A stretch of DNA of 37,668 nt from a virus, in IMG/VR virus record IMGVR_UViG_3300002231_000332, positions 11,309 to 48,976 of that record, one strand, 5' to 3'. Of the stretch, positions 10,990 through 37,668 are shown piece after piece. The position numbers and the translations under genes are program-made. Every line of letters begins with the position of its first letter. The first letter of the stretch is position 1. Below the pieces are notes generated by a model that was given only the letters and a program-made list of their open reading frames with translations, made no database searches and was not told the DNA's origin.

Positions 10990-11430
10990 TTACCCAATCG
11001 AAATAACAGTTGGTTTCGCCTCTTCGGTAGGAGGGATAGTAACCCTCAGTAGTCCATTCTCGAAGGACGCGTCTGATTTATTCAAATCAAGCTGATTCTC
11101 GTAATCAACAAACGACTTCGAGAAAGACCTCCTAGCAATCCGTCGTGAGGTTGTATCTCCTTTTGAGATGGACTCACACGAAATCGTAATGTAGTTATCC
11201 CTCACCTCCACCTTCAGGTCTTCCCTGGAGAAGCCAGCGAGAGCTACCTCGATTACTTGATTGTTTTCCTCGTCTTTATATATGTCCGTAAGGGGATATC
11301 CTTCTGTGGATTTCTTAGTGACCTCGCCGGACCAATCTGGCGAGCGAACGATCAATTGCTCGAAGATCGAGTCCAGCACCGATTGCCCCATGATGGACGG
11401 AAAGTAATGGTTTCTAGTTAGTTTAGTCAT
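10990..11430 (-). CDS. Hsp20/alpha-crystallin small heat-shock protein
   Basis: The 146-aa protein shows the alpha-crystallin domain at about 46-140: TDIYKDEENNQVIEVALAGF, then REDLKVEV, a basic SRRIARRSFSKSF segment, and ASFENGLLRVTIP, which fits the family A-x-x-x-n-G-v-L signature. It should act as an ATP-independent holdase in the cytoplasm. T4-like marine phages often encode Hsp20. The gene is a clean single unit with its own promoter (11497-11524), structured leader, AAGGAG site and terminator. A DnaJ-like zinc protein follows. Confidence 0.92.
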   Translation of the reverse strand: MTKLTRNHYFPSIMGQSVLDSIFEQLIVRSPDWSGEVTKKSTEGYPLTDIYKDEENNQVIEVALAGFSREDLKVEVRDNYITISCESISKGDTTSRRIARRSFSKSFVDYENQLDLNKSDASFENGLLRVTIPPTEEAKPTVISIG

Positions 11431-13477: not shown

Positions 13478-15043
13478 TTAGTCCTCGATAATGGCATGGC
13501 TCGTAGTAATAAGTGTCCCTATTGCCGATACAGCATTCTGAAGAGCACACCTGGTTACTTTTGCTGGATCTATGATTCCGCTACCCAGCAGATCCACCGT
13601 ATTGCCTGTTGACATATCGAAGCCATAGCCCTCGTCAAGCCCTAGGGCTCCGTCTAACAAGACATCTGGCTTCTTGCCGGCATTAGCCGCCATTTGCCGT
13701 AAGGGCTCCTGAATCGCCTTGAGCACAATCTGAGCACCATATTCCTGGTCAGAGTTATCTGCCTGTATCTCCACACCTCGGGCTGCCGACAGGAGTGCCA
13801 TGCCTCCGCCACATACCATCCCCTCTTGCTGAGCTGACTTCACTGCCTCAAGAGCATCTTCGATACGATGCTTCTTTTCTGTCATTTCTATTTCAGTGTT
13901 GCCCCCCACACTAATGATAGCAATGCCGCTAGCCAATCTAGTAATCCTCTCCTGGATTCTCTCACAAGCCTGCATGTTGTCTGTCTGCTCAAAGAGTGAT
14001 TTAAGAGAGTCAATCCTTTGTTCTACTTGGGCAGTATCCCCGTTTCCGCCAACGATGGTTGTAGCTATTTTTGATGCCTCAATCGTTTTAGCGTTTCCGA
14101 GGTGAGTCAGCTTGATGTCACGAAGGTTGAGCCCCGACTCTCTCGTTACAAAAGTGGCACCGACACTGGTAGCCAAGTCTTGGAGGATGTTCCTTCGCTC
14201 GTCTCCGTAGCGAGGTGCCTTGATGGCGGCGACCTTCATCGTTCCCCTCACCGTATTCATAATCATTGCCGCTAAAGCTTGACCCTCAATTTCTTCTGCT
14301 ACGACGACGATGGGGCGACCATCTCGTGCTGCCAGTTCTAGTGCTGGGAGGATATCTTCCACGAACTCAATCTTTTCATCTGTGATTAGGAAGAGAGGAT
14401 CGTTATACTTTAGAACTCCTCTCCGCTCATCAGTGATAAAGGCACTGGCGGCATAGCCGCTGTCGAAGCGGAAGCCCTCAACTACATCTAGGCTAGTCTC
14501 TAGAGATTTACCGTCCTCGATGGTTATTGAGCCGTCCTTGCCGATCATATCGATGGCTGTGGAGATGAGCTTTCCTATTGTCCGATCACCGTTAGCCGAG
14601 ATGGTGGCGATGTCTTCGATGTCGTCCAGCTTCGTCACTCTCTTAGCACTGGCTCGGAGGTTATTTACGATAACGGCTGTTGCCTTGTCGATGCCTCGCT
14701 TGAGCTCAACTGGAGATGCTCCAGCAGCGATGTATTTCTGTGCCTCAATGAAGATTGCCCGAGAGAGGACGATGGCTGTGGTGGTGCCGTCGCCAGCACT
14801 GGTGTTCGTCTCTTCGCTTGCCTGTTTGATTACTTGGGCACCGACATTTTCGAATGGGTCAGCAAAGTCTATGAACCGTGCTACTGTTACCCCGTCTTTG
14901 GTTATGATTGGATTTCCATTCTTAGGCTGAATAACAACATTCCTGCCCCTTGGTCCCATTGTGGCGGCAACATTGTCCGCCAACTTGTTAACTCCGTCTA
15001 GAATTTTTTGTGATAAAGAACTGCCGTCATCATAATTTTTCAT
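13478..15043 (-). CDS. groEL: Phage-encoded chaperonin GroEL (Hsp60)
   Basis: The 521-aa protein aligns by eye along its length to group I chaperonins: ATMGPRGRNVVIQ (about 27-39), KDGVTVAR, the ATPase segment TSAGDGTTTA at 81-90, the apical domain (IVVVAEEIEGQALAAMIMN) and VCGGGMALLSAARG. It would form the folding cage in the cytoplasm. It lacks the bacterial Gly-Gly-Met tail, ending SHAIIED. A GroES-like protein is encoded 11 kb away. It has its own promoter and a GGAGG ribosome site, so strong expression during virion assembly is likely. Confidence 0.95.
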   Translation of the reverse strand: MKNYDDGSSLSQKILDGVNKLADNVAATMGPRGRNVVIQPKNGNPIITKDGVTVARFIDFADPFENVGAQVIKQASEETNTSAGDGTTTAIVLSRAIFIEAQKYIAAGASPVELKRGIDKATAVIVNNLRASAKRVTKLDDIEDIATISANGDRTIGKLISTAIDMIGKDGSITIEDGKSLETSLDVVEGFRFDSGYAASAFITDERRGVLKYNDPLFLITDEKIEFVEDILPALELAARDGRPIVVVAEEIEGQALAAMIMNTVRGTMKVAAIKAPRYGDERRNILQDLATSVGATFVTRESGLNLRDIKLTHLGNAKTIEASKIATTIVGGNGDTAQVEQRIDSLKSLFEQTDNMQACERIQERITRLASGIAIISVGGNTEIEMTEKKHRIEDALEAVKSAQQEGMVCGGGMALLSAARGVEIQADNSDQEYGAQIVLKAIQEPLRQMAANAGKKPDVLLDGALGLDEGYGFDMSTGNTVDLLGSGIIDPAKVTRCALQNAVSAIGTLITTSHAIIED

Positions 15044-20238: not shown

Positions 20239-23200
20239 TTACCCTAGCATTCTAAAAGAATGCCTGATGCTTCTTGTGCTAAATCCCCATACCGGATCAT
20301 GATCTAGTCGTGCCATGTAGGGGCGGTTTAGCTGTACACTGTCAGAGCCCTTCTTGACTCCCCAGCACTTTATTGCTGTCACGGTGCTGTTCTTGTCTAT
20401 GGCTTCTATGAGCCACCAATCCTTGCCGTGCTTCGTCTTTTTCTGTACTACTTTCCTGGGGATGAACCACACAATTCCTAGCCCCGGATCGTACTCGCTG
20501 ATGGGAGGAACAGCAACCTCTTCCAGTCGGCGCTCTACTTCCTTGGTCATAACAAGTTCGAATGGGAATAGCCCAGTCAGATCAATAAGGTAATCAAGCT
20601 TCTCCTCTGGGGTGAAGTCTCCTTCACTAACATACTTCTCTATGTTCTCTAGGAGATTCTTCTCTTTTCTCGGACGATCATTGGCTATCGCCATCCAAAA
20701 GTGCTTCATTCCGCTAAATCTATCGTCAATGAGCTCATTCATCGCCTGAGAGCGAGCAAGTGCGTCGATGCTCTTCTTGTTTACCTTCGAGTAGAGCATT
20801 CTATCATTAAAGAGGAACTCCTCCACCGTATTGAATGGTCGATGAGTCATTATCTCTTTGATAGCTGTGCTTCCCAAGCCCTTGATGCTCGAAAGCGGCT
20901 GGATTAGTGTGTTGCCATCTTCGTTGATTTCCCAAGTGAAGCCGCTAGTATTTACATTGAGCTTCTCAATTTCGAATCCCATACTTCGTGCTATGTTGAT
21001 AGCCTTCTCTTTTCGTGCTTCTGGCTCCTTGTCTAGGAATGCTGCCATCCACTCAGAAGGATAGTAGTTCAGCAACCAAGCACATTGAAACGATAGGATG
21101 CTGTAGCTCAAGGCATGAGACTTGTTGAATCCATATCCTGAGAAGAACTCAAATGTATCCCATAGTCTTTGAGCATCGTCTGCTCTCATATCTTTCTCTA
21201 GACATCCCGAGATGAAACGGTTGTGGATGTCCTCTTTGAGCTTGTCTTTCCCAGAGCCTCGCTTGGTCAAAATCTTACGAAGCATGTTCCCTTCGTCTAG
21301 ACTGATGTCGTTACCGAGGCGATGGGCTAGCAATGCTATTTGCTCCTGGAAGATAAGAAACCCGTAAGTCTCCTTGGTTACTTCCTCAACAATCTTGTGG
21401 GCATATTCAATCTCATCAGGATTGTTCTTTGCTTGGATGTAATGCTTGTCCACTTTGGCGGAGAGAGGTCCAGGTCGATAGATACTTGTAATGGCAGAGA
21501 GGTCAACGATGTTGTTTGGCTTGACATGCTTACAAAACCTTTGGGCTCCGTCTTCAGTAAACTGGAAGATGCCTGCCCATTTTCCTCTCCCGAAGATGTT
21601 CTTGTATACATTCTGGTCATCCAAGTTGATAACTGTTGGGTGAAGATTCTTGTCGTAGAATTCTTTCACATCATCAAAAGTGGGCTCAGGATTGCCCTTG
21701 TGTCGCTTGAGAACATGGACGATTGCTGACTCCATCATTCGAAGCGATGCTAGTCCCAAGATATCAAACTTGATGAAGCCCATGGGCTCTAGATGCCGGA
21801 CATTCTGCCCTTCGCTCCATGGAGTCTGCTTCACACCACCACTATTGATGATTGGCATGTGCTGATCTAGATTGTCTCCAACAACTACTCCGCCAGCATG
21901 ACGAGAGCAGCTTCTCACTTGACCGTACAGCACATCAACATTAGTCTCTACATCGGGGTACTTTCGAAAGAACTCCTGTAATGTAGGGCTATATTCTTTC
22001 ACTTCCTCGAAGCCTGGGATATACATGCCGGCTGTCATACCCTTCGCCTTTTTAGCCAAAGGGGTTGCCTCTCTCATCATTACACTGGTAACTAAGTTCA
22101 CTTCCTTGAAGGGAATGCCCTGCATCTTGCTGATGTCTTTTATCAGAGATTTTAGCTGAAGTGTGTTCCAGTTTGAGATGGGAACAACCTTATCGTCACC
22201 CCACTCTTCTATCAGAGCCTCTTTCAATTCAAAAGGATCAGAAACATCATAGTCGATGTCGGGAAAGCCTACATCCTTCTGGTTCCTCGTCATGAAACGC
22301 TCGAACAGAAGATCGTACTTTATCGGATCTACCTGGGTTATGCCCAGGACATAAGCGACAAGAGAGCCCGCCGCACTGCCACGGGCTGGACCTACGAGCT
22401 GCTTGGACAAGGCAATGTCGGAGATTGCTTTCATCGTAAGAAAGTATTGAGAGAAGTCGTTGGTATTGATTACCTCAAGTTCTTCGTTTAGGCGATTTAC
22501 ATAAACATCTTTCTTATCAAGACCGGCTTTTCGGAGCCCCTCAGTGGAACACTCAATGAGAGTATCTGCTGGCGTTTTACCTTTGGGGACCACAAAACTT
22601 GGAAGCCGTACCTGGTTATCTGGTAGAAACCTGGATATTCTCTCATGGGCAATGTTATGCGTCTCGGTAATAGAGTCGCGTACCAGATTATCATCGTATT
22701 CATATCCACAATCCTTTGAGTACCCTTTGTAAGATGCCCACATTTCATCGCCATTCTTGGGATAAAGCTGGTAATCCATTTCGTCAATTGTCTCGGGGAT
22801 TCCCGAGCCATCATCGCCCTTTTTGAGCCATCCTATTTTTCTATATACCTCTCGCTGCTTCCACACATCGGGGCTCGGGTAGTGGCTATCAGCGGTACTA
22901 ATTAGGCTCACATCAAACTCTTTTGCTACCTCGATAATATGTTTGTTTAGCTGATGTTGCTCATCGATTCTGTTCCACTGGAGTTCGGCATACCATCTGT
23001 CGCCGAAGATGTCCACCATCCTCGATGTTGTCTTTCTCATTGCCTCTCTGACTGCCTCAGAGCCTTCCTCTCGGTTCTCCCAGAAGTCTCCGGCATATAC
23101 ACCGCCAAGGCAAGCGGAGGCAGCAATGACCCCCTCGTTGTGTTCCTGTAGCATATCGAAATCTAGGCGAGGGAAACGATAATAGTTCTCTTCTCTATAG

Positions 23201-23673
23201 CTCTTGCTGATTAGTTGAAAAATGTTATTTAGCCCTTTTTGGTTCTGGGCTAATAGGATCAAGTGGCGGCGGCGGTTCAGGATGCTCTTGATTGCCTTCT
23301 TTGTCTCTTCCTCATCTTCGACAGTCGCACCGGACACATCATCATCCAACTTCGCTTGGCGCTTTTTGCTTGCTGCTCGCTCTTTTTTGATTCTCTCATA
23401 GTCATCTCGCCATTCCGATACGGATGGAATAAAGTATGCCTCAACACCAAAAATTGGCTTAAAGTCCTTACCCTGCTGTTCCATCTTTTTAGCATGAAGC
23501 ACTTGGTATGCCAGCCCATTCATGTTGCCGTGATCAGTTAGAGCTAAGGCATCCATGCCGTTCTCATAGGCAAAGTCCATGTGTTCTTGTGGGTATCCAA
23601 GACCGTCAAACACACTGGCGACACTGTGGGCATGTAATCCTACGAACGGAATCGTTGATTCTTTTCTTTCCAT
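20239..23673 (-). CDS. dnaE: DNA polymerase III alpha subunit (DnaE, family C)
   Basis: This 1144-aa protein has an N-terminal PHP domain (LHAHS with H14 and H16; LTDHGN at 45-50; GVEAYF), then the family C polymerase core: PARGSAAGS (429-437), the catalytic aspartates D472 and D474 in PDIDYDV, and a third in IKFDILGL. A helix-hairpin-helix region (SSIKGLGSTAIKEI) and an OB-like C-terminus (WWLIEAIDKNSTVTAIKCWG) follow. It should replicate phage DNA. Length and domain order match bacterial DnaE, which T4-type phages normally lack. It has its own sigma70 promoter with a palindrome. Confidence 0.95.
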   Translation of the reverse strand: MERKESTIPFVGLHAHSVASVFDGLGYPQEHMDFAYENGMDALALTDHGNMNGLAYQVLHAKKMEQQGKDFKPIFGVEAYFIPSVSEWRDDYERIKKERAASKKRQAKLDDDVSGATVEDEEETKKAIKSILNRRRHLILLAQNQKGLNNIFQLISKSYREENYYRFPRLDFDMLQEHNEGVIAASACLGGVYAGDFWENREEGSEAVREAMRKTTSRMVDIFGDRWYAELQWNRIDEQHQLNKHIIEVAKEFDVSLISTADSHYPSPDVWKQREVYRKIGWLKKGDDGSGIPETIDEMDYQLYPKNGDEMWASYKGYSKDCGYEYDDNLVRDSITETHNIAHERISRFLPDNQVRLPSFVVPKGKTPADTLIECSTEGLRKAGLDKKDVYVNRLNEELEVINTNDFSQYFLTMKAISDIALSKQLVGPARGSAAGSLVAYVLGITQVDPIKYDLLFERFMTRNQKDVGFPDIDYDVSDPFELKEALIEEWGDDKVVPISNWNTLQLKSLIKDISKMQGIPFKEVNLVTSVMMREATPLAKKAKGMTAGMYIPGFEEVKEYSPTLQEFFRKYPDVETNVDVLYGQVRSCSRHAGGVVVGDNLDQHMPIINSGGVKQTPWSEGQNVRHLEPMGFIKFDILGLASLRMMESAIVHVLKRHKGNPEPTFDDVKEFYDKNLHPTVINLDDQNVYKNIFGRGKWAGIFQFTEDGAQRFCKHVKPNNIVDLSAITSIYRPGPLSAKVDKHYIQAKNNPDEIEYAHKIVEEVTKETYGFLIFQEQIALLAHRLGNDISLDEGNMLRKILTKRGSGKDKLKEDIHNRFISGCLEKDMRADDAQRLWDTFEFFSGYGFNKSHALSYSILSFQCAWLLNYYPSEWMAAFLDKEPEARKEKAINIARSMGFEIEKLNVNTSGFTWEINEDGNTLIQPLSSIKGLGSTAIKEIMTHRPFNTVEEFLFNDRMLYSKVNKKSIDALARSQAMNELIDDRFSGMKHFWMAIANDRPRKEKNLLENIEKYVSEGDFTPEEKLDYLIDLTGLFPFELVMTKEVERRLEEVAVPPISEYDPGLGIVWFIPRKVVQKKTKHGKDWWLIEAIDKNSTVTAIKCWGVKKGSDSVQLNRPYMARLDHDPVWGFSTRSIRHSFRMLG

Positions 23674-28680: not shown

Positions 28681-30036
28681 CTAATCTTCTTTTCTTGTTT
28701 CGTCCCTAAGCATTTTGTATACCTTCTGTGGACCCGACAATACCTCTGCCGAGTGCTCATCTTGTGGAAATACCTTTATCGAGACATTTCCTGGGTCCAT
28801 AAAAATTGGAAACACTACACCGTCAATACCATTCCTATTTTTGGCTATATAAACCCTCCCCGTATTGTTCATCTTGTCAGCACCGGTTCTTGATACTGAG
28901 AAAATAAAATCAGCCACGAAACATTTCGAGAATGCTTCACTAATAGATTCCATTGTAATAACTTCAGCGTTTATCCCACTCCTGTTCGTTTGAGATGCTG
29001 TCCAGACGGGGCACTCGAATTCATGAGCGAGTGCCCTCAACTCTTCATAAATAGTTTCGAGCTCTTCCCTTTTCTCCTTCGAGTGTGAAATAGGTTTCAA
29101 AATATCACCGTAATCCACAACAATCATTCCAGGCTTGAAATCTCGGTTTCGAAGCTTCTCCAGGTGAGTTCTGAGAGTCTGGGTGGTAGCCGACTTCGTT
29201 GGGTATTCTTTGATCAAAAGCTTTCCTGGCAATTCTTTGATCTCCTCGAATACATCCTCTTTGCTATGACGAAGTTCGTTGATTGGGATTCCAGTCAGGC
29301 AACTATCATATCTATTCCCGATTGTCATGTCCTGAAGCTCTAGTGTGTAGTGAACAACATTTACTCCGTTCTTCAAAGCCATGGCACCCAAGTGAGCTAG
29401 CACCATGCTTTTACCTACGCCAGTAGGAGCTATAACGACTCCGAGTTCTCCCTTTCCCATACCTCCGCCAGTGATTCTATCTATTTCTCCCCAGCCAGTT
29501 GCAATCGGATGCCTGGATCTAAGCTGATACCTTGCTTCAAAGTCTTCTATGAAGTCATACCCAGTATCGTTATCGACACCTAGCTTGAGAGCATCATTGA
29601 TAATCTTGCTAACTTCGTCGAAGGATGACTTTTGCATCAGCTTCACACTTTTGAGCATAGCTTCTTGGAGCTTTTGTTTCCGGCAGAAATCAAGGGATTT
29701 GTCCTGGACAAACTCTTCATCAACATTAGAGAAGTTTCCGCTGGCGATTCGGACATAAAAGTCACGGACCTGCTTTCTGACGGCTTCGTTCCCGGAGGAG
29801 GTTTCGCTCTTAAGAATGCTCTCGAATGTATCTCTCGATGGATGTTTTTTGTATTTCTCCTTATATAGATAAATTTTATTTACAAAATTTTGAAGATACT
29901 TTAGTTCAAAGAAGTTTATGTTAAGCACTTCGCCGATTTGAGTCGAGAAACGAGAATCATCTAGAATCATCTTTGCTAGAGATTCTTGAAATCCTTTTCC
30001 GAAAGAGCCAAAAGTCGAATCGTTGTCTAGTTCCAT
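28681..30036 (-). CDS. Replicative DNA helicase (DnaB/gp41-like)
   Basis: The 451-aa protein has Walker A APTGVGKS (203-210), Walker B MIVVDYGDILKP and the arginine-rich C-terminal motor common to DnaB and T4 gp41. The N-terminal 170 residues are helical, as in gp41. It should unwind DNA 5'-3' ahead of the fork. No separate primase is visible in the window. It has its own promoter (30058-30086) and GGGAG ribosome site. The upstream exonuclease ends before it, with a gap of 46 bases. Confidence 0.93.
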   Translation of the reverse strand: MELDNDSTFGSFGKGFQESLAKMILDDSRFSTQIGEVLNINFFELKYLQNFVNKIYLYKEKYKKHPSRDTFESILKSETSSGNEAVRKQVRDFYVRIASGNFSNVDEEFVQDKSLDFCRKQKLQEAMLKSVKLMQKSSFDEVSKIINDALKLGVDNDTGYDFIEDFEARYQLRSRHPIATGWGEIDRITGGGMGKGELGVVIAPTGVGKSMVLAHLGAMALKNGVNVVHYTLELQDMTIGNRYDSCLTGIPINELRHSKEDVFEEIKELPGKLLIKEYPTKSATTQTLRTHLEKLRNRDFKPGMIVVDYGDILKPISHSKEKREELETIYEELRALAHEFECPVWTASQTNRSGINAEVITMESISEAFSKCFVADFIFSVSRTGADKMNNTGRVYIAKNRNGIDGVVFPIFMDPGNVSIKVFPQDEHSAEVLSGPQKVYKMLRDETRKED

Positions 30037-30057: not shown

Positions 30058-30086
30058 AATATAGCTTTTTTTCTTTCGAAAGTCAA
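30058..30086 (-). promoter_or_regulatory. Sigma70-type promoter for the helicase
   Basis: TTGACT (30081-30086), 17 bp, TATATT (30058-30063), about 22 bases before the helicase ATG. The -35 overlaps the exonuclease stop codon region. Confidence 0.7.
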
Positions 30087-31069
30087 GATGTTTGTTTCTT
30101 TAATTCATAAACAGTTCTCTGGAATAGGGCAAAGAGATTATCCAGGTTGATTTGAGGGCAGCCGTCTTCAAACAGAAGCTTGACCATCCCTGTCTTATTG
30201 AACAAGGGAACATATTCGTCAAATGTTTCCCTTATTTTTCTAGTTGTCTGAGTTGAGAGGGATGGTGAATAAAGCTGCATCATCTTGTAGTTGATTTTTA
30301 CAGTATCAATGTTCTCCAAGACATCTCGGTAAAACTTCACCTTTTCTTCTTCCCTCTCTTCACAATACTTTTCTATTTCTGTTAGAAGATATTCTTTCTC
30401 TTCGGCTAAAAAGGGAAGCCTCTTCGCTACTGTCGGAAGCCCGACTCTCGGCACTCCAGGAAGGTTATCCGACTTATCACCAGCGATTGCCCTAGCGAGA
30501 GCAAAATTGTTGGGATGGATGTTGAACTTTTCTAAAATAGAATTCTTATTCACAACCTCGTCCTGAATCGGGCGATATAGGACTGTTGTATCTCCACACA
30601 ACTGGAAGAAATCCTTGTCGCTCGACACTATCACTTTGTGCCAGTCGCTAAATTGAGGGAGCTGGCTCACATATGATACCGTATCGTCTGCCTCCGTTTC
30701 AGGAAACATAAACTGGACTACGGGAGTCTCGTTTAGATACTCAAGGACTCTGACCTGCTGCCAGATGAGGTTTTTTGACTCTTCATTTTCTGGCAGGTTT
30801 CTTATAAATCGATTGAGGCGAACTGGCTTTCTACCTTCCTTGTATCCCTTGACAATGCTTCGGCGTCGGCGGCTGCCGTTTTCTCCGTCCCATACAACAG
30901 ATATCAGATCTGGCTTTATCGTTCTTGCTAGCTTTTGTAGTCCCTGGAGAAATCCAACTAAGCCGCCGATGGGCTGACCGTTGGAGGAGATAGTTGGATT
31001 CACAATATAGTGCCTAATAAAAGCATTGTGACCGTCAACTATCATTATTCTTTTCTTATTTTCGCCCAT
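30083..31069 (-). CDS. 5'-3' exonuclease/flap endonuclease (RNase H-type)
   Basis: The 328-aa protein has the metal ligands of the FEN/5'-3' exonuclease family: D12 in MIVDGHN, D61 in VVWDGENG, D128 and D129 in ETEADDT, D151 and D153 in SSDKDFF, and D198 and D201 in the helix-hairpin-helix GDKSDNLPGVPRVG. It resembles T4 RNase H, which removes RNA primers from lagging-strand fragments. It lies downstream of RecA, ClpP and a coiled-coil peptide and before the helicase. GGAAT lies eight bases before the ATG. Confidence 0.92.
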   Translation of the reverse strand: MGENKKRIMIVDGHNAFIRHYIVNPTISSNGQPIGGLVGFLQGLQKLARTIKPDLISVVWDGENGSRRRRSIVKGYKEGRKPVRLNRFIRNLPENEESKNLIWQQVRVLEYLNETPVVQFMFPETEADDTVSYVSQLPQFSDWHKVIVSSDKDFFQLCGDTTVLYRPIQDEVVNKNSILEKFNIHPNNFALARAIAGDKSDNLPGVPRVGLPTVAKRLPFLAEEKEYLLTEIEKYCEEREEEKVKFYRDVLENIDTVKINYKMMQLYSPSLSTQTTRKIRETFDEYVPLFNKTGMVKLLFEDGCPQINLDNLFALFQRTVYELKKQTS

Positions 31070-31232
31070 TCTTAGATTCCAATCGTCTAAGCTTCGCCCT
31101 AGCAGACTGAAGCTTCTTCTTTATCTTTTCGTTCTCTTCTCTCAGAAGAAATATTTCGTCAAGAAGGTTTTCTATTGCATCTATAGAAATCTTAACTGTT
31201 TCTTTGAGAGTTTCTATTTTCGTTTTTTTCAT
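31056..31232 (-). CDS. Small coiled-coil protein (58 aa)
   Basis: The frame begins MKKTKIETLKETVKISIDAI and continues as one leucine-rich heptad helix (ENLLDEIFLLREENEKIKKK) ending in a basic tail (RAKLRRLESKNGRK). It fills the gap between ClpP and the exonuclease and overlaps the exonuclease start by 14 bases. No strong ribosome site is present. A dimeric helix that could bridge replication proteins is plausible, but the role is unknown. Confidence 0.55.
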   Translation of the reverse strand: MKKTKIETLKETVKISIDAIENLLDEIFLLREENEKIKKKLQSARAKLRRLESKNGRK

Positions 31233-31244
31233 CTACGAATCAGC

Positions 31245-31853
31245 TCAAATAATTTCGTCAACTAAGCCATATTTTAGACAAGTGTCCGCATCGAACCACA
31301 AATCGTGCTTGAGAATCTCGTCAAGCTTCTTTTTTGGAATGTTGGTGTGCTTATTGTAGATCTCCCTGATGGTCTGCATCAGAATCTCACAATTCTCCAT
31401 GCTGTCCTTGAGTTCTTCAAACTTGCCCCACATACCAGAAGATAACTGATGGATGAGCATGAACGAGTTCTTGTGGATGTATCGCTTTTCAGCCACGACA
31501 CTCATCAGAGTTGCTGCCGAGGCGGCACACCCCTCTACTACCGAGTGGATCGGTGCCTTGGAAGCCATTATATAATCCACCGATGAAAGTCCAGCGAAGA
31601 CAGAGCCTCCGTAGGAATTGATGTGTAGTCGGATTGGAGGAACTGGAATGTTGTAGTTGTGACTATTTGTACACATAGCATCAGATAGTGTCTGGATGTT
31701 TTTGTTTAGTGCCAGGCATTCCGGTCGAGTTACTTCTGAGTAAAAATAGATCCTGTTGTTTAGGGAGGATACCTCATTTTCGTTCGAACTGTTATCGTCC
31801 AGTCGGATATCACAAGTGCTCCCCCAGTATTTATCTTGCTTTAACATTTTCAT
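31245..31853 (-). CDS. ClpP-like serine protease
   Basis: The 202-aa protein has the ClpP fold markers: INSYGGSVFAG (78-88), EGCAASAATLM with catalytic S112, FMLIHQLSSG with H135, and KHDLWFDADTCLKYGLVDEI with D184. The full Ser-His-Asp triad is present. It would form a barrel-shaped peptidase; with no ClpX or ClpA in the window it may use host unfoldases, or serve as a prohead protease. It directly follows RecA, with an AGAGG ribosome site. Similar ClpP-like proteins are known in phage capsid maturation. Confidence 0.88.
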   Translation of the reverse strand: MKMLKQDKYWGSTCDIRLDDNSSNENEVSSLNNRIYFYSEVTRPECLALNKNIQTLSDAMCTNSHNYNIPVPPIRLHINSYGGSVFAGLSSVDYIMASKAPIHSVVEGCAASAATLMSVVAEKRYIHKNSFMLIHQLSSGMWGKFEELKDSMENCEILMQTIREIYNKHTNIPKKKLDEILKHDLWFDADTCLKYGLVDEII

Positions 31854-31855
31854 TT

Positions 31856-32980
31856 CTATACCTCTTCCTCTGCTTCATCGTAAAAGTGTTGGGCATCTAC
31901 ATCCCTATTATCAAATTTCAGTACGACTTCTTCGTCCACAAGCCGTAAGACTCTATCTCGAAATTTTGAATCCAGCATGAATTCGCCCCACTTGGCGGCT
32001 TGGAATTTCTGCTCAGATCCATCGCCATATTTGAGAGTCCACCATGGACCCGAGCTTGTCAACTGGTCCGAAGACTGTATAGCCTCAAATAAGCTTTCGT
32101 CATCTCTCACCCCAATATCATTACCCCACATAATCTTGAAATTACATATTCTGCCGGCTGTTCCAAAGCGAGACTTTTCCAATCGAGCCTTAACTTCATT
32201 GCCGACGACGAAACCCTTGTCGTCAGCGATGATGCTCTTCTTGCCTCGCTTGCCAGTCAGCCAAATTCTCAAACTGTAGGCATACATCATCGACTTGCCT
32301 CCAGGAGTGGTATATTTTTCACTATCCGTCGCGTATTTCGGGTTCGCTACTTGAAGATTTGTTTTGAGCTGATTTAGCACCAAGAGGGTAGACTGTGAGT
32401 TGGCTAGCGACACTATTAGTTTGGACATTCCCTTAGCCAATACACGAGCCTTGACAGCAACCGATTCATTGGGGTTAAATGTTCCCTCTACATCGCTCAC
32501 AGCCGGGGTCAAGGCGAGGCTGTCCCAAATAAACAGCATCTTATCTTCCGTCGAATTCAAAAGCTCCTCAATCGTCTCCAGTACAAACTCAACAGAGCTC
32601 GCCTGAACATACAGAACTTCATCGACATTCAGACCGCTTTTGCCAAGAAAAGTAGGATCGATGGATGATTCCGAATCGAAGTATACCACATTGATGCCCA
32701 TTTTCTGGGCATTGGCTGCTGTCTGGGCTGCCATGTAGCTCTTTCCGGAAGCTTCTAACCCTGCTATCTCCGATATCTTTCCTACCGGGATGCCGGCAGT
32801 CTTTCCTCGGCAGATGACACTATTTAGCCATGTGGAGCCTGTGGGAATCCAGTCTTTGACTTCAGTTGGATTATCTGTCGTAAGATCGTGTGCTACATTC
32901 ATGCCAGCCTTTTTATTGATCTTCTTCCTAAGCTCATCGATGTTCAAAGAACCTTTTTTCTGTTTCAAACTTCTCACCAT
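31856..32980 (-). CDS. RecA/UvsX-type recombinase
   Basis: The start at 32980 (MVRSLKQKKGSLNIDELRKK) is chosen because GGAG lies eight bases before it; the frame upstream to 33016 starts in poor sequence. The 374-aa protein has Walker A GLEASGKS at 74-81, Walker B MLFIWDSLAL, and the loop region of RecA (VEGTFNPNESVAVKARVLAK and NQLKTNLQV). It should form filaments on single-stranded DNA and pair homologous strands, as UvsX does in T4 recombination-dependent replication. It follows the SSB terminator and is first in the RecA-ClpP-exonuclease run. Confidence 0.93.
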   Translation of the reverse strand: MVRSLKQKKGSLNIDELRKKINKKAGMNVAHDLTTDNPTEVKDWIPTGSTWLNSVICRGKTAGIPVGKISEIAGLEASGKSYMAAQTAANAQKMGINVVYFDSESSIDPTFLGKSGLNVDEVLYVQASSVEFVLETIEELLNSTEDKMLFIWDSLALTPAVSDVEGTFNPNESVAVKARVLAKGMSKLIVSLANSQSTLLVLNQLKTNLQVANPKYATDSEKYTTPGGKSMMYAYSLRIWLTGKRGKKSIIADDKGFVVGNEVKARLEKSRFGTAGRICNFKIMWGNDIGVRDDESLFEAIQSSDQLTSSGPWWTLKYGDGSEQKFQAAKWGEFMLDSKFRDRVLRLVDEEVVLKFDNRDVDAQHFYDEAEEEV

Positions 32981-33002
32981 AGCACAACTCCGTAAATAAA
33001 GT

Positions 33003-33034
33003 AAAAAAAGAGGCACCCGTTAACCCTGTGCCTC
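33003..33034 (-). terminator. Rho-independent terminator after the SSB gene
   Basis: The coding strand reads GAGGCAC (33028-33034), an 11-base loop, GTGCCTC (33010-33016) and seven T residues. The 7-bp stem and T-run are typical. It ends the SSB transcript 18 bases after its stop, ahead of RecA. Confidence 0.88.
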
Positions 33035-33052
33035 CCCGTGGGTGTGTGATGT

Positions 33053-33805
33053 TTAACGAGTCATCAGTTCGTCAAGGGCATTATCAACCTTGTTCACACC
33101 ATTGCCAGGATATTTTTCCACTTCACTGGAAAACTCCTCTGGATTGTCGGCTGTCAAATGAACATCCAAGAATCCTTGAACTTCAACAGTCGTCTTTTTC
33201 TCAAAGAGAGATTCAAAATCTGGCACAGTACCCAAAAGACCCTCACACTGCTCTTCGCTAATCTTATCGCTGCAAAGGCGGCTAGAACGTCGTTTTGGTG
33301 TCACCTTGGTCATAGGAAATTGACCTCCAGGTGGCTTACCGTAATGTAGATCCAGATCGATACCAGTTTCAATATCCGTAATATCCCCGTAGTCCGGATT
33401 CAGCACAAGACCCAGGAGAGTTTCATATACCGTCTTGGAAAAACCCCATAGACGGACTCCAAGCTCCTCTTCCCCTCGAACAAGGACGGGAGAGAAGAAT
33501 CGAGATTTAACACCGAGCTGTCGTGCCATAGCTTTGCTCTCTTCATCGCCTTCTTGGTAAAGACCACGAACAAAACCACATACTGGGCAATCCTCTCCAA
33601 AATTATTCTTTGGACACAGGAAGCCGCCCTCTTTGCCGACACCATAATGGAAAGAAAAGCTCTTGAAAGGATCTCCGTCCTCAGTCGGAACAATCCGTAC
33701 AGTCTGTGTTCCCTCGGAAGGTTTCCAGAACTGACTGCCACCACCCTGACCTCGGTTTTTGAGGGTGCTGTACTTTTCTCTCATTTTTTTCATATCAATT
33801 GCCAT
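33053..33805 (-). CDS. gp32-like single-stranded DNA-binding protein
   Basis: The 250-aa protein begins MAIDMKKMREKYSTLKNRGQ, a basic start like gp32's cooperativity domain. A zinc site is visible as H53, C64, C73 and C76 (FLCPKNNFGEDCPVC), close to the T4 spacing of His then three Cys. The core (VRIVPTEDGDPFKSFSFHYG and RFFSPVLVRGEE) is the OB fold, and the C-terminus is acidic. It coats single-stranded DNA during replication and recombination. It is a stand-alone unit with a perfect sigma70 promoter, AAGGAG site and terminator. Confidence 0.92.
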   Translation of the reverse strand: MAIDMKKMREKYSTLKNRGQGGGSQFWKPSEGTQTVRIVPTEDGDPFKSFSFHYGVGKEGGFLCPKNNFGEDCPVCGFVRGLYQEGDEESKAMARQLGVKSRFFSPVLVRGEEELGVRLWGFSKTVYETLLGLVLNPDYGDITDIETGIDLDLHYGKPPGGQFPMTKVTPKRRSSRLCSDKISEEQCEGLLGTVPDFESLFEKKTTVEVQGFLDVHLTADNPEEFSSEVEKYPGNGVNKVDNALDELMTR

Positions 33806-33836
33806 TTAAGACTCCTTTTAGTTTTTGTTAGACATC

Positions 33837-33865
33837 ATTATATCAGATCACTTTGCTTATGTCAA
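33837..33865 (-). promoter_or_regulatory. Perfect-consensus sigma70 promoter for the SSB gene
   Basis: TTGACA (33860-33865), 17 bp, TATAAT (33837-33842), about 30 bases before the SSB ATG. The -35 overlaps the stop codon of the WYL_2 gene. Confidence 0.85.
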
Positions 33866-34132
33866 GTGCTTTTTCTCAAAATTTTCTTTTTCCTTTCCTT
33901 CCAGTAGTTTCACATCTACTTCTCCCAGTGCTGAGTTCCAGTTGAATGTCCGGAAGGCAGACTCGGAAACATCCCATACGAGCTCTTGCCCTTCTGGTAC
34001 TTTTCGCTGAGATGATCCATCCTTAATCTTGGAACTTAAAAAGCTGGAGGGGAGATCTTCCAGCTTTACAAAAGTCATAGTCCGAATGTCGCTGTTCTTC
34101 TTCTTGAAAGAACCTGTAAAAATTTTAACCAT
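33857..34132 (-). CDS. WYL_2 (DUF2693-like) Sm/SH3-type protein
   Basis: The 91-aa protein has the WYL_2 pattern: MVKIFTGSFKKKNSDIRTMT at the start, then VWDVSESAFRTFNWNSALGE at about 52-71, matching the short phage beta-barrel that binds nucleic acid or ligands. T4-like phages often carry one or several. It overlaps the FtsZ-like gene's stop and is followed by the SSB promoter. Precise function is unknown. Confidence 0.7.
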   Translation of the reverse strand: MVKIFTGSFKKKNSDIRTMTFVKLEDLPSSFLSSKIKDGSSQRKVPEGQELVWDVSESAFRTFNWNSALGEVDVKLLEGKEKENFEKKHLT

Positions 34133-34967
34133 AGTTTACTCCTTGAATTATCTTTGTTTGAGAAACAATATAGATGTAGTTCTTGTCATATTCCGTTGAG
34201 TATACTCCAAAGCCTACTTTTATGTCCTCGTCCTTTTGTGCTACTCTCTTCTTTACCCTAAAGAGGAGATCAGAATCGTTATCTACCTGTTTTTTGTTTA
34301 TAGCAAAATAATAGCTCTTTTCGTTAACATTGTCAAGAGAAAAGCACATCTGATCTGTCATTTTTTCCATCTCACCGATTCCTATAGTACAAATCCGGCA
34401 AATACCAGACTCCTTTGGGTAGCTGGACATTACTGCTTCGGTGTTTCTATAGACATTCAGCATGTGAATGGTGGAAGAGACAAATTCATTGATCGTGTCT
34501 TGATATCTGCCAATCGGAATATTCCCAATGACCTTTTCGATTGCGGAATTAGAGATAAGATAGAGTTTCTCGAAAAGCCCAGACCGAGCATATTCCTGGA
34601 ATACATTAGATACCACTCTGTCGAGGTTCCTTGAGTGATCGTCAGTAAGATCTGGCTTTATATAGAGCACCTCTATTCTTCTCGAACTTACTGCCTCCAG
34701 TATTCTTAGCGATGCTGAGGAAATGTCTGTGCCGCCGGAAACCACAAAGAGAATGTCGCCGTCAATCTTCTTGAGAGCATTCGTAACCCTTGCTGGAAAC
34801 TTTTCTTCGTAGTCTTCTGGTGCCGATCTCTTCTTGATGGAAAAGCAGTTCTTATTATCTTTATCGGGAAGCCCTGCTCCTATCTTATATACTTCATACT
34901 GGGGATGTTTTCTGAACTTCTCTGCTATAGCACATCCGACCTTGCCCAAGCCAATCACATTAATCAT
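34125..34967 (-). CDS. Divergent FtsZ/tubulin-like protein
   Basis: The 280-aa protein follows the FtsZ fold order: INVIGLGKVGCAIAEKF (2-18) for the first nucleotide-binding loop, ILFVVSGGTDISSAS (72-86) in place of GGGTGTG, VLYIKPDL, then LYLISNSAIEKVIGNIPIGR (135-154) matching the LITIPNDKLLKV segment of FtsZ, and a C-terminal half (ICTIGIGEME, then VGFGVYSTEYDKNYIYIV) like the FtsZ second domain. The glycine loop is degenerate, so GTP hydrolysis is doubtful. It could build a filament, block host division, or position DNA as PhuZ does. It overlaps both neighbours by eight bases. Confidence 0.65.
   Translation of the reverse strand: MINVIGLGKVGCAIAEKFRKHPQYEVYKIGAGLPDKDNKNCFSIKKRSAPEDYEEKFPARVTNALKKIDGDILFVVSGGTDISSASLRILEAVSSRRIEVLYIKPDLTDDHSRNLDRVVSNVFQEYARSGLFEKLYLISNSAIEKVIGNIPIGRYQDTINEFVSSTIHMLNVYRNTEAVMSSYPKESGICRICTIGIGEMEKMTDQMCFSLDNVNEKSYYFAINKKQVDNDSDLLFRVKKRVAQKDEDIKVGFGVYSTEYDKNYIYIVSQTKIIQGVNYG
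34308..34336 (-). promoter_or_regulatory. Internal sigma70-type promoter for the WYL_2 gene
   Basis: TTGACA (34331-34336), 17 bp, TATTAT (34308-34313) lie inside the FtsZ-like gene, about 175 bases before the WYL_2 start. Good hexamers, but embedded in coding sequence. Confidence 0.5.
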
Positions 34968-35274
34968 CTTCTTTCACTTCCTCTAGGATGATCCCCTCAT
35001 AATATGCCCCAAGGTCAGCCTCTTTCTGGATTCTTTCTTCCATAAGCTCGTCGATGGTGTATCCCAGCTCAAGAGAAAGAGCATACACCACTTCCAAGAC
35101 TTCTGCCAGTGCTCCGAGAGATCGATTCTCCAAATAGCCATTAACATGCTCAAGCAATGCGTCATCAACATAATCTAGATATTCCTCTTTCAGTGCCTCT
35201 CGGCATGAGAATACCTTCTTCTTCTTTATTAAGAGATGTGGTACTTTATCTCGAACGAGTTTATCGTATTTCAT
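34960..35274 (-). CDS. MazG-like nucleotide pyrophosphohydrolase family protein
   Basis: The 104-aa protein begins MKYDKLVRDKVPHLLIKKKK, the YDKLVRDKIP start typical of the COG4997 branch of all-alpha phosphohydrolases related to MazG. ALKEEYLDYVDDALLEH and LAEVLEVVYALSLELGY carry the acidic helices that bind magnesium (E-E-x-x-D pattern). It would hydrolyse nucleoside or phosphoribosyl triphosphates, possibly alarmones; the substrate is unproven. It overlaps the polymerase stop by four bases and precedes the FtsZ-like gene. Confidence 0.75.
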   Translation of the reverse strand: MKYDKLVRDKVPHLLIKKKKVFSCREALKEEYLDYVDDALLEHVNGYLENRSLGALAEVLEVVYALSLELGYTIDELMEERIQKEADLGAYYEGIILEEVKEDD

Positions 35275-36446
35275 ATATCAATCCTCCTCATGTTGCCAAA
35301 GTCTCTGCCGGCACTAACATTGACTAAAAAATCTCCAATTTTGTTCCGGGAAAAAATTTCCTTGATCTCGTATATCAAAGCTCGCTCCTCCTGTGCCAAA
35401 TCCACCACAAAGCTGTCGTGAATCAAGAATACTATCTTGGATTTCTTTCCTTCTAGGATCTTATTTATCTTCATAGCTTGGTCAAGAACCAAATCGCTAG
35501 TAGTGCTCTGTAGAATATAGTTCAGGGCATGTCCGTCGTCACACTCTATTTCTCTTCCAAATGGAGTCTTGATCTTACCTGAATTGTAATACTTTTTTAA
35601 TACCTTTTCCACCTTGTAGTAGTCTTGGTCAATGTTCGGATTATATATCGCCGAGAAGATCTTCTTCTTCGCTTCGGCTCTGGTCATTTCCTTTTTGAAG
35701 ACATTCTCAATATTCCACTCGTGGATATCTCTTTTCGGCTGCTCTTGTCCAGATAGAGAGAGTAGTGTTCTTAGCTCGGCAGCATTGTAATCAAACTCCA
35801 CAAACAGATCGTTATTCGGTTTGACTATTTCCCTGAGAGATCGCTCAATGTTTAGAATGGGAAAGCTAGAATTTGTTACTGTTAGTCTGCCGGTAATAGT
35901 CCCGAACTGATTGTATTCTATCGAAGTCTTTCCTCTGACTCTGTGGAGGAAGTTTCTAACTGCCGCATTTCCGAGCTTGCCTCGGAGGCTCGATGTATCA
36001 ATCTTGAGAGTGTTTTCTTTGATTTCAGCAAATAGTTTTTCCAGCCCAAGCATAAAGTCGTATGCCTCTGGCTTGTGGAGGTTTTGATGAACATGCTCAA
36101 GAATCTCACATTTGAGCTGGGAGATCTCTTTCATAAACCACGGTGGAACCAGATCGTATATACACACATCCTGGACCTTTATTTTGCTATTCTTGATGGC
36201 TGTTTCGAATGCCTTTCTTTTTTCCAGTGCTCCGTCCCAATCTCTACCCAGATGCTCGGGGCACATTTCTCCTAAAGATTTGCCGCCACAATAAAGCTTC
36301 AGATACTCTATTCCGTCTTGGTGGTGGGAATGGGAGTAGTCCCATGTTACATTGTTTTTGTCGGGATCGGGGCTCGTATCGTGGATGGCGCCGTCATAGT
36401 AGTATCCTAAACACTCTTCCTTCGAATCAAGAGTTATGTAAAACAA
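35271..36446 (-). CDS. Compact family A DNA polymerase (PolA-like), TTG start
   Basis: The 391-aa protein shows the polymerase motifs of Pol I: TGRLTVTNSSFPILNI (185-200), motif A FDYNAAELR (218-226, D219), motif B O-helix RAEAKKKIFSAIYN (256-269, with F264 at the E. coli F762 position), a tip segment TPFGREIECDD, and motif C IHDSFV (342-347) where HDE becomes HDS. The 3'-5' exonuclease and 5' nuclease domains are absent. The start is TTG 36446, with GAGG five bases upstream, since no ATG is in frame nearby. It may fill gaps or act in lagging-strand processing beside DnaE. Confidence 0.85.
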   Translation of the reverse strand: MFYITLDSKEECLGYYYDGAIHDTSPDPDKNNVTWDYSHSHHQDGIEYLKLYCGGKSLGEMCPEHLGRDWDGALEKRKAFETAIKNSKIKVQDVCIYDLVPPWFMKEISQLKCEILEHVHQNLHKPEAYDFMLGLEKLFAEIKENTLKIDTSSLRGKLGNAAVRNFLHRVRGKTSIEYNQFGTITGRLTVTNSSFPILNIERSLREIVKPNNDLFVEFDYNAAELRTLLSLSGQEQPKRDIHEWNIENVFKKEMTRAEAKKKIFSAIYNPNIDQDYYKVEKVLKKYYNSGKIKTPFGREIECDDGHALNYILQSTTSDLVLDQAMKINKILEGKKSKIVFLIHDSFVVDLAQEERALIYEIKEIFSRNKIGDFLVNVSAGRDFGNMRRIDI

Positions 36447-36447
36447 G

Positions 36448-37668
36448 CTATCCTCGCTTTCTTTTAAGCATGAAAGTTCCTCGGCGATATTTGTCTATCT
36501 GAGAGCTTTCTTTCCACGGTCGGCGGACCTCTTTATTGATGAATTTGTATGCTGCTTCTTCTCCGGAGTAGAGAAAGAACTCTGCTGCCTTTGAGGCAAC
36601 CTGGTCAAGCTTGTATTGGTTCCAGTCTCGGTTCGTCTCTTTCGCTCTAATAAACACATACAGCCTAATCCAGAATGAATTATCAAAATACCATTCCTCG
36701 TTATATTGTTCCTTGCTAATGGTATCACGATGGATAATCTTTGTCAAGCTTTTCTTTTTACCTTTTCCTCCCACGAGGGGGATTCTGACTGTCGGAAGGG
36801 TTTTGACGAAGGCATTGTAAAACTCTCTCATATACACTTTGAGATTTGGTATATCAAAGTGGTGGGATCGATAGTAGTATTTGTCTACCATAGTTTCGGA
36901 GTTTATCCCGTAGGTATTCATATGATTTTGAATCTGAGGAGCATATGGTAGTGCCAGCAATCTCCACGGGGCATTCTTATCGAGAACGAATCCATTGTTT
37001 GCTGCAATCTGCCTGTATATTTCGAAGTTGGAGTCGTTAGTATAGGATAGTATCTTTTCTAGATCGTCTCCGTGATCGAGGGAGTCTTCGATCTCAACAG
37101 CAAGCCCGCTATACATTGGAGTTCCCAAGTTGCTTGTTATGTATTCCGTCTTTGTAAATGGCGAGAGCAGTGTTGTTCTGTCTATCAGTATCGTGAACTG
37201 CTCAACGAAGTCCTGGAAGCTTTGGATGTGCTCATTGATTTCTGGGGAGGATAGAAATGGGAAGAGGTAGTTGCTATAAAAAGAGTTTATAAACGAATCG
37301 TAATCGCTATTGACGCTTTGCCAGCCTCGAAGGGGTTGTAGAAAATTTGTGTCCTCTATGAACCCTCCGGCATATAACATCCCATCCGAACGAAGTAAGT
37401 CCATATTTCTTCGGAATGTGGTAAAGGCATCTGCTACAAAGTTCAGGGCTACCACACTTGTCTCGTCATCGGGTATTTCTTTTAGGAAGTTCTGGGAGGG
37501 GTATATTGAGTCTTGATTCTTATCAATCCTGCCAAATAAAATATGGTCATACCAATAGTCGGCAGAGCTCTGCTCTAAAATACCGACAGGGTAGTTCTTT
37601 ATATACGACAGTCTCTCACTGTAAGAGCTGCTTGCTGGGAGGCTATTTGATCCAAAACTTAGCTTCAT
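36448..37668 (-). CDS. Uncharacterised protein, begins at or beyond window edge
   Basis: The visible 406 aa start with an ATG exactly at the window end (MKLSFGSNSLPASSSYSERL), so the true start may lie further upstream. It is rich in aromatic residues and Asp/Asn (SADYWYDHILFGRIDKNQDS; YYYRSHHFDIPNLKVYMREF), with no obvious catalytic motif or signal peptide. The C-terminus is basic (FMLKRKRG). A structural or virion-assembly role is possible because of size and composition, but it lies beside replication genes. The polymerase starts one base after its stop. Confidence 0.6.
   Translation of the reverse strand: MKLSFGSNSLPASSSYSERLSYIKNYPVGILEQSSADYWYDHILFGRIDKNQDSIYPSQNFLKEIPDDETSVVALNFVADAFTTFRRNMDLLRSDGMLYAGGFIEDTNFLQPLRGWQSVNSDYDSFINSFYSNYLFPFLSSPEINEHIQSFQDFVEQFTILIDRTTLLSPFTKTEYITSNLGTPMYSGLAVEIEDSLDHGDDLEKILSYTNDSNFEIYRQIAANNGFVLDKNAPWRLLALPYAPQIQNHMNTYGINSETMVDKYYYRSHHFDIPNLKVYMREFYNAFVKTLPTVRIPLVGGKGKKKSLTKIIHRDTISKEQYNEEWYFDNSFWIRLYVFIRAKETNRDWNQYKLDQVASKAAEFFLYSGEEAAYKFINKEVRRPWKESSQIDKYRRGTFMLKRKRG

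Follow-up and report, generated by a model that had tools for sequence, protein, structure and literature searches.

A gene set between a DNA polymerase gene and a single-stranded DNA-binding protein (SSB) gene of an uncultured phage encodes a protein that, judged by its predicted structure, is a member of the tubulin/FtsZ superfamily at the level of fold, in both of its domains. The gene lies in a window of 37,668 nucleotides, positions 11,309 to 48,976 of the 48,976-base virus record IMGVR_UViG_3300002231_000332 of IMG/VR, and we call its product TUB1.

34125-34967, minus strand: TUB1, tubulin/FtsZ-fold protein of 280 amino acids (open reading frame (ORF) with an ATG start; AlphaFold2, Foldseek, VIA and sequence profiles)

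An AlphaFold2 model of TUB1, built from an alignment, had a mean predicted local distance difference test score (pLDDT) of 92.8 and a predicted template-modelling score (pTM) of 0.91. When the model was compared with the Protein Data Bank (PDB) by Foldseek, all 50 matches listed were to FtsZ (best E 1e-13), at 10-15% identity in the fold alignments, and in VIA-align the 50 listed matches were filled by CetZ, FtsZ, TubZ and tubulin, the best being CetZ 3zid_B (Z 24.4 over 255 residues, root-mean-square deviation 3.0 Å, 14% identity). Among viral models, the top two matches were phage proteins annotated as FtsZ or cell-division protein; next came tubulin-like and PhuZ entries and others that are unnamed or uncharacterized, and unrelated proteins appeared from rank 10. 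The same fold was predicted for a second member of the family, L121 (39% identical to TUB1 of the window; pLDDT 94.0), modelled on a different but overlapping alignment; here TubZ and FtsZ gave the best Foldseek E value of 1e-11 and CetZ a VIA Z of 24.1. The VIA matches of both models ran from residue 1 to residues 271-283.

The predicted layout comprises an N-terminal nucleotide-binding domain, the core helix H7 and a C-terminal activation domain (strand names are our own assignment from DSSP strings). An initial annotation of this DNA, made from the sequence alone, had read in it an FtsZ-like order of secondary-structure elements, with a glycine loop IGLGKVGCAIAEKF, the loop SGGTDISSAS, and LYLISNSAIEKVIGNIPIGRY running into a long helix. 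The model bears out this order, the landmarks are all present, and the FtsZ/tubulin fold extends over nearly the whole length in both models. The C-terminal half that had been likened to an activation domain is also there, in a reduced form: by our reading of the DSSP strings, neither model has a helix between H7 and S7 (H8) or between S7 and S8 (H9). The outcome named beforehand as refuting the proposal, a different Rossmann-like family with no C-terminal tubulin domain, was looked for with AlphaFold2, Foldseek and VIA, and is not what emerged.

Sequence profiles support homology of TUB1 to both FtsZ and PhuZ. In local hhalign alignments, a profile of 103 TUB1 sequences was collinear with FtsZ between T1 and H7 (P 3e-4, probability 40%) and matched PhuZ along the first 97 columns (P 4e-5, probability 70%), whereas decoys, consisting of ten neighbour families and two reversed profiles, gave P values of 0.058-0.77. 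Global alignment with PhuZ gave P 0.0012, and comparison with a second phage tubulin family, TUB2 (see below), P 5e-5. At the level of sequence, profiles can only just detect the similarity of TUB1 to FtsZ.

Residues were counted over the 103-member alignment and compared with eight FtsZ and six PhuZ sequences, and the elements concerned are the following.

34929-34955, minus strand: T1-like glycine loop IGLGKVGCA (residues 5-13), matched to the glycine loop of FtsZ in the hhalign alignment
34710-34739, minus strand: remodelled T4 phosphate loop, residues 77-86 (SGGTDISSAS), from the hhalign alignment and the 103-row counts
34548-34550, minus strand: N140 at the end of S6 (T6 loop), at the position of FtsZ Asn165 in the hhalign alignment, conserved in 99/103
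34446-34514, minus strand: core helix H7, residues 152-174 (AlphaFold2), which includes N160 (100/103) and H168 (103/103)
34395-34445, minus strand: H7-S7 linker, residues 175-191, which replaces the T7 loop and helix H8 (AlphaFold2 models and 103-row alignment)

The T1 glycines are almost invariant (G6 and G8 in 103/103, G11 in 102/103), counts that are partly a product of selection, the rows having been trimmed on the T1 motif; L117 (IMGLGQAGC) and L143 (VVGMGKAGC), two of the three rows dropped for the pattern, still carry these glycines. An aspartate at the end of S2, D30, is found in 89/103 members. The positions of N140 and N160 are those we take to be the guanine contacts of FtsZ and tubulin, although hhalign places N160 relative to FtsZ 186/187 only to within one residue. 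In the T4 loop, the reduction of GGGTGTG to SGGTDISSAS, to which the initial annotation had drawn attention, holds for the window protein but not as the form of the family, the commonest version of which is close to GSGxISG (about G-[SAG]-G-x-[IV]-S-[GAS]); T80 is peculiar to the lineage of the window, with threonine there in 3/103 and glycine in 90/103. The pattern GGGTG[TS] occurs in none of the 103 TUB1 sequences and in all eight of FtsZ, but since it is also missing from all six PhuZ sequences, the change in T4 alone is no proof of lost GTP binding.

A similar caution applies to T7. The stretch of residues 171-191, which is 21 residues long in all 103 rows, contains the FtsZ T7 catalytic motif NxDxx[DE] in 0/103, and its most acidic column is acidic in 58/103. 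A related pattern used as a control, [NV]xDFxD, was present in 6/8 FtsZ and 0/6 PhuZ sequences; given that the PhuZ set itself lacks the FtsZ-type pattern, a missing motif is not in itself proof that catalysis has been lost. With the usual T7/H8 element missing from the models, the standard trans-acting mechanism is a less probable route to hydrolysis. On whether TUB1 binds GTP poorly or not at all, as the initial annotation suggested, the evidence points both ways: the phosphate loop is remodelled and the FtsZ-type T7 motif is missing, but N140 and N160 are retained, and phiKZ PhuZ has a competent site (PMC3678025) although the PhuZ set shows neither GGGTG[TS] nor the T7 pattern. Six residues, Y24, L87, Q124, R128, S129 and H168, are invariant (103/103 each) and are, to our knowledge, not tubulin signatures. 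An extended C-terminal tail is absent, the median length of members being 279 amino acids.

TUB1 is a real gene, because three close relatives are 98% identical to the window protein, the ratio of nonsynonymous to synonymous substitution rates (dN/dS) is low, and a homologue is present in 72 of 80 loci collected through the neighbouring SSB. The dN/dS values, 0.06-0.17 in 12 of 13 pairs with synonymous changes saturated in the remaining pair, indicate that TUB1 is under purifying selection. While a scan of IMG/VR with the TUB1 protein itself returned only four near-identical loci, a scan with the SSB returned 272, of which the best 80 were kept as the SSB-anchored set, and the 72 homologues correspond to 72 of the 75 loci with room for the gene. 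Five of the eight loci without TUB1 (L028, L030, L073, L077 and L079) end about 0.5 kb or less from SSB; in L024, L080 and L088 the 1.0-2.2 kb upstream of SSB hold other ORFs, and TUB1 was not found there.

A 38-row alignment (A2) was made from 43 sequences, leaving out L004 (broken frame), L021 and L047 (cut), L022 (an unread residue) and L055 (a near-duplicate), and spans 32-98% identity to TUB1 of the window. A pattern derived from it matched at least 599 stretches of IMG/VR, at least 592 of which encode TUB1 relatives, so the guess that unnamed relatives exist elsewhere was right. The 103-row set excludes ORFs shorter than 255 amino acids, sequences with X, exact duplicates, and L117, L143 and L047, which are without the trimming pattern; near-identical rows remain in it, so that the rows are not independent. 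Each of 15 large records (84-191 kb) carries exactly one copy of TUB1. The same kind of pattern scan over a genome collection of 84,980 species gave a single match, L166, in a WOR-3 metagenome-assembled genome; lying on a piece of about 5 kb flanked by runs of N in a scaffolded bin, it was rejected as evidence for a host. Searches of 50,697 phage records by tblastn with three TUB1 members gave no credible match, only partial matches at E 1 or worse, or nothing.

Family databases do not pick the protein up. Single-sequence searches with TUB1 gave ApbA at 0.23 as the best match in Pfam, none in PHROGs, a best value of 0.073 in NCBIfam and, by phmmer against PDB, a best value of 0.0082 to a lipoprotein over 33 residues. 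The 38 members scanned singly gave scattered weak matches of many kinds in Pfam and PHROGs (best 0.0051 and 0.00057). The Pfam tubulin profile, PF00091, misses the family: it was seen in 2/38 members at E up to 1 (best 0.024), gave no match over the curated cut-off in the 15 large records, and matched nothing in the 48,976-base record from which the window comes. The TUB1 family is carried by a large clade of uncultured tailed phages and is not recognised by standard family databases.

The gene is embedded in a replication operon. Its ATG overlaps the stop of an upstream MazG-like gene by 8 nt, and it overlaps the start of a downstream 91-aa gene, also by 8 nt.

36448-37668, minus strand: conserved gene of unknown function, 406 amino acids, upstream of the polymerase domain (no PHROG; one weak Pfam match below cut-off)
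35271-36446, minus strand: PolA-family polymerase domain, 391 amino acids, upstream of TUB1 (PF00476, E 1.7e-15)
34960-35274, minus strand: MazG-like protein, facultative neighbour of TUB1 (Pfam PF12643, E 3.9e-4, below cut-off)
33857-34132, minus strand: 91-aa protein, phrog_1086-like, facultative neighbour of TUB1 (phrog_1086, E 3.2e-4)
33053-33805, minus strand: gp32-like SSB, downstream of TUB1 (PF08804, E 2e-11; phrog_1192)
31856-33016, minus strand: UvsX/RecA-like recombinase (phrog_97, E 4.4e-51)
30083-31069, minus strand: 5'-3' exonuclease (PF02739, E 1.3e-24; phrog_107)
28681-30036, minus strand: DnaB-like replicative helicase (phrog_19, E 2.4e-75)

We examined linkage in 77 loci found by the TUB1 pattern, at least eight of which are on contigs that the SSB scan had also reached. 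Downstream of TUB1 there is an SSB in 65/65 loci with enough sequence, and upstream of it a PolA-type polymerase in 58/59 testable loci, within distance limits of 2.5 kb and 2.6 kb, respectively (the SSB of L083 and the polymerase of L151 lie just beyond). The MazG-like gene adjoins TUB1 in 14/77 loci and the 91-aa gene in 11/77. The position between a MazG-like and a 'WYL_2' gene had been noted as not a known tubulin locus, and we too found no description of such a locus in our searches of open-licence PMC papers; the constant neighbours, however, are PolA and SSB, and the 91-aa gene then called 'WYL_2' has no Pfam match up to E 0.1. UvsX, the 5'-3' exonuclease, DnaB and ribonucleotide reductase (RNR) then come in the window, and this series is found whole or in part in many loci. 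The 406-aa gene, which adjoins the polymerase in many related loci, may encode a polymerase partner or, if the polymerase is split, its N-terminal portion. Besides the small PolA domain, the window encodes a large DNA polymerase of 1144 amino acids (20239-23673, minus strand; phrog_405, E 9e-230). A ClpP-like protein (31245-31853, minus strand; best PHROG 'head maturation protease'), present in some relatives only, sits within the operon, and a GroEL homologue is encoded at 13478-15043 on the minus strand (phrog_5725, E 4e-144).

Modules of this kind also exist without TUB1. Flavobacterium phage immuto has PolA, two small genes, SSB, a recombinase, an exonuclease, DnaB and RNR; similar modules are found in Microcystis phage Mel-JY01 and in LR756508, and a partial one in a Lysinibacillus phage. 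Whole-record searches of Mel-JY01, immuto, LR756508, LysYB1, phiKZ and Noxifer with the TUB1 profile found none, the record of L001 serving as the positive control. Judged by these sister modules, TUB1 seems to have been either added to an older replication module or lost from it. In Mel-JY01 a hypothetical protein of 428 amino acids (L182:7406-8692) occupies the spot before SSB; it was considered as a hidden tubulin and rejected, having no match to the TUB1 profile.

Our tentative proposal is that TUB1 forms a stable, nucleotide-dependent scaffold of the phage replication centre, a reading that is almost tied with that of a replisome adaptor which does not polymerise. The position and constancy of the gene argue for a role in replication, and the tubulin fold for nucleotide-gated association. 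TUB1 would bind guanine nucleotide in its remodelled pocket, where the T1 glycines, N140 and N160 are kept, and would associate head to tail, or with replisome proteins, beside the polymerase and SSB. In tubulin and FtsZ, the T7/H8 element of one subunit supplies the missing part of the next subunit's active site; as TUB1 does not have this element in its usual form, hydrolysis in such an assembly would be slow or would not take place, and the resulting stable structure would hold, space or position replicating phage DNA rather than act as a dynamic spindle of the PhuZ type.

Several observations weigh against a scaffold. We infer both nucleotide binding and assembly, and the isoleucine or valine that TUB1 has in T4 where FtsZ has glycine could block the phosphates. 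The argument for lost hydrolysis is weakened by the PhuZ control (T7 pattern in 0/6) and by the presence of some acidic residue within residues 171-191 in 99/103 members. The six invariant residues (Y24, L87, Q124, R128, S129 and H168) may mark a different activity. Passages of the structural work on phiKZ TubZ describe T7, the base of H8 and S9 as forming the protofilament interface there and in tubulin and FtsZ (PMC3678025), and in the TUB1 models a known interface element of canonical protofilaments is missing. As to homology, the hhalign probabilities are low (40% for FtsZ, 70% for PhuZ), global alignment with FtsZ fails (4 columns, P 0.8), and a 38-sequence TUB1 profile found nothing among PDB sequences. 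Finally, the operon relatives in Mel-JY01, immuto, LR756508 and the Lysinibacillus phage manage without TUB1.

A possibility that we take about as seriously is a tubulin fold no longer part of a cytoskeleton, a monomer or small oligomer that might load, bridge (in the manner of a clamp) or regulate PolA, SSB and the helicase. The fixed position between PolA and SSB, the models without H8 or H9, the missing FtsZ-type T7 motif, the lack of an extended C-terminal tail (median 279 amino acids) and the invariant residues unlike those of tubulin are all in its favour, while the continued conservation of the guanine-contact asparagines and T1 glycines goes beyond the needs of a mere scaffold. We know of no precedent for such an adaptor among prokaryotic tubulins. 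A dynamic spindle like that of PhuZ, which centres phage DNA or carries capsids by means of GTP hydrolysis, belongs to the same superfamily and is likewise phage-encoded, and with PhuZ at 0/6 for both GGGTG[TS] and the T7 pattern, the absence of these motifs alone leaves a GTPase possible. We nevertheless consider a TUB1 spindle unlikely, as helix H8 is in neither model, no acidic column is kept in the linker (at most 58/103), and phiKZ chimallin was not found in the 15 TUB1 records of 84-191 kb (0/15, a weak point, the search being without a positive control).

More improbable still is that TUB1 is a GTPase-dead FtsZ mimic which caps, or co-assembles with, host FtsZ, in line with the poisoning of host division suggested in the initial annotation. 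The Foldseek match to the FtsZ fold speaks for it, but identity to FtsZ is 10-15%, sequence similarity is barely within reach of profiles (P 3e-4, probability 40%), interface elements are missing, and the neighbours are replication genes, the constant linkage to PolA and SSB pointing to replication. That TUB1 is a Rossmann-type dinucleotide-binding protein misread as a tubulin seems scarcely credible. Some members do match TrkA_N and other NAD-binding Pfam families weakly (best of these 0.018), but all 50 Foldseek and all 50 VIA matches listed for both models are chains of the tubulin superfamily, and hhalign supports FtsZ and PhuZ.

The search of the 15 large TUB1 records with PF00091 revealed, in record G006, a separate ORF of 364 amino acids (E 3.1e-7, below the curated cut-off), which defines the second family, TUB2.

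L192:6387-7481, which is G006 C1:103389-104480, minus strand: TUB2 query gene, 364 amino acids (PF00091 search; relatives L194-L273)

The motifs of TUB2 are GVGGGGGK at T1, GGGGGTGS at T4 and D-S-K-D-L at the place of T7, and its profile and that of FtsZ align over 246 columns (P 7e-12). Of the TUB2 rows, 68/68 have GGGTG[TS] and 67/68 have D-x-[KR]-D-L, the query probably being counted twice among them. From its motifs, TUB2 appears to be a canonical, catalytically intact phage tubulin family. At least 107 IMG/VR stretches encode relatives, and tblastn with TUB2 in the phage collection found none at E 0.01. In G006 the gene adjoins cell-wall-enzyme genes, with amidase and peptidase domains. 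Among 20 large TUB2 records, six have a clear TUB1 and a seventh has one at E 0.005, and thus phages with two tubulin families exist in metagenomes; among 31 TUB1 records, TUB2 was found only in the query's own source record. Both families are present in seven records, two of them perhaps near-duplicates. An obligatory TUB1/TUB2 heterodimer was rejected on this co-occurrence (1/31 and 6-7/20), though many of the records are fragments.

A further reading, which we hold about as tentatively as the scaffold, is that a tubulin-fold protein lacking the customary catalytic loop has become a core factor of DNA replication, the constant partner of PolA and SSB, and that some phages add a second, intact-looking tubulin, giving two tubulin systems in one virus. 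Should TUB1 act in DNA replication, the roles of the tubulin fold would extend beyond partition, spindle and division, and the range of tubulins in uncultured phages would prove wider than has been assumed. Its small size and missing H8 and H9 make TUB1 a natural test of which parts of the fold are needed for assembly.

Passages of a 2025 survey of large phages treat tubulin homologues as a distinguishing function of the nucleus-forming Chimalliviridae, plus a handful of scattered cases, on the basis of hidden Markov model searches at E < 1e-5 (PMC11835377), and tubulin/FtsZ protein clusters are mentioned in part of a report on hot-spring viruses (PMC8597652). Our searches of open-licence PMC papers found no description of the TUB1 family or of its locus among tubulins.

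FtsZ (PF00091 plus a C-terminal domain) shares with TUB1 the two domains joined by H7, the T1 glycines and the asparagines at T6 and in H7. Unlike TUB1, it has GGGTGTG, the T7 NxDxxD, H8 and H9, and a C-terminal tail, while TUB1 differs in having no Pfam match above cut-off, in its replication operon and in its identity of 10-15%. Archaeal CetZ is the best structural match, yet at 14% identity, and with the best Z scores of CetZ, TubZ and FtsZ within 2 of each other, TUB1 cannot be assigned to a subfamily. The TubZ of Bacillus plasmids (TubRZ) resembles TUB1 in fold (2xka_A, Z 22.8; the L121 model against 2xka_C, Foldseek E 1e-11), but TUB1 is about 100 residues shorter than the listed TubZ chains. 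TubRZ partition loci carry iteron clusters, whereas no iteron cluster was found near TUB1, in positions 31000-37668 of the window.

PhuZ, the phiKZ TubZ of Chimalliviridae, is like TUB1 a phage protein of tubulin fold without GGGTG[TS] or the FtsZ-type T7 pattern (0/6 each). In the structural account of phiKZ PhuZ, the relevant passages describe a competent site and a C-terminal tail that serves assembly (PMC3678025). Unlike the TUB1 records, those of phiKZ and Noxifer yield nothing to the TUB1 profile; by this profile test TUB1 is not PhuZ, and the likeness to PhuZ put forward in the initial annotation extends to the fold and, weakly, to profiles, and no further. Nor should TUB1 be classed with FtsZ or the PF00091 GTPases, because it is without their T4 signature and T7 motif, has no helix H8 in the models, and stays below the Pfam threshold. 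TUB1 represents a new, reduced and divergent family of the tubulin superfamily, and is a protein of the phage replication module.

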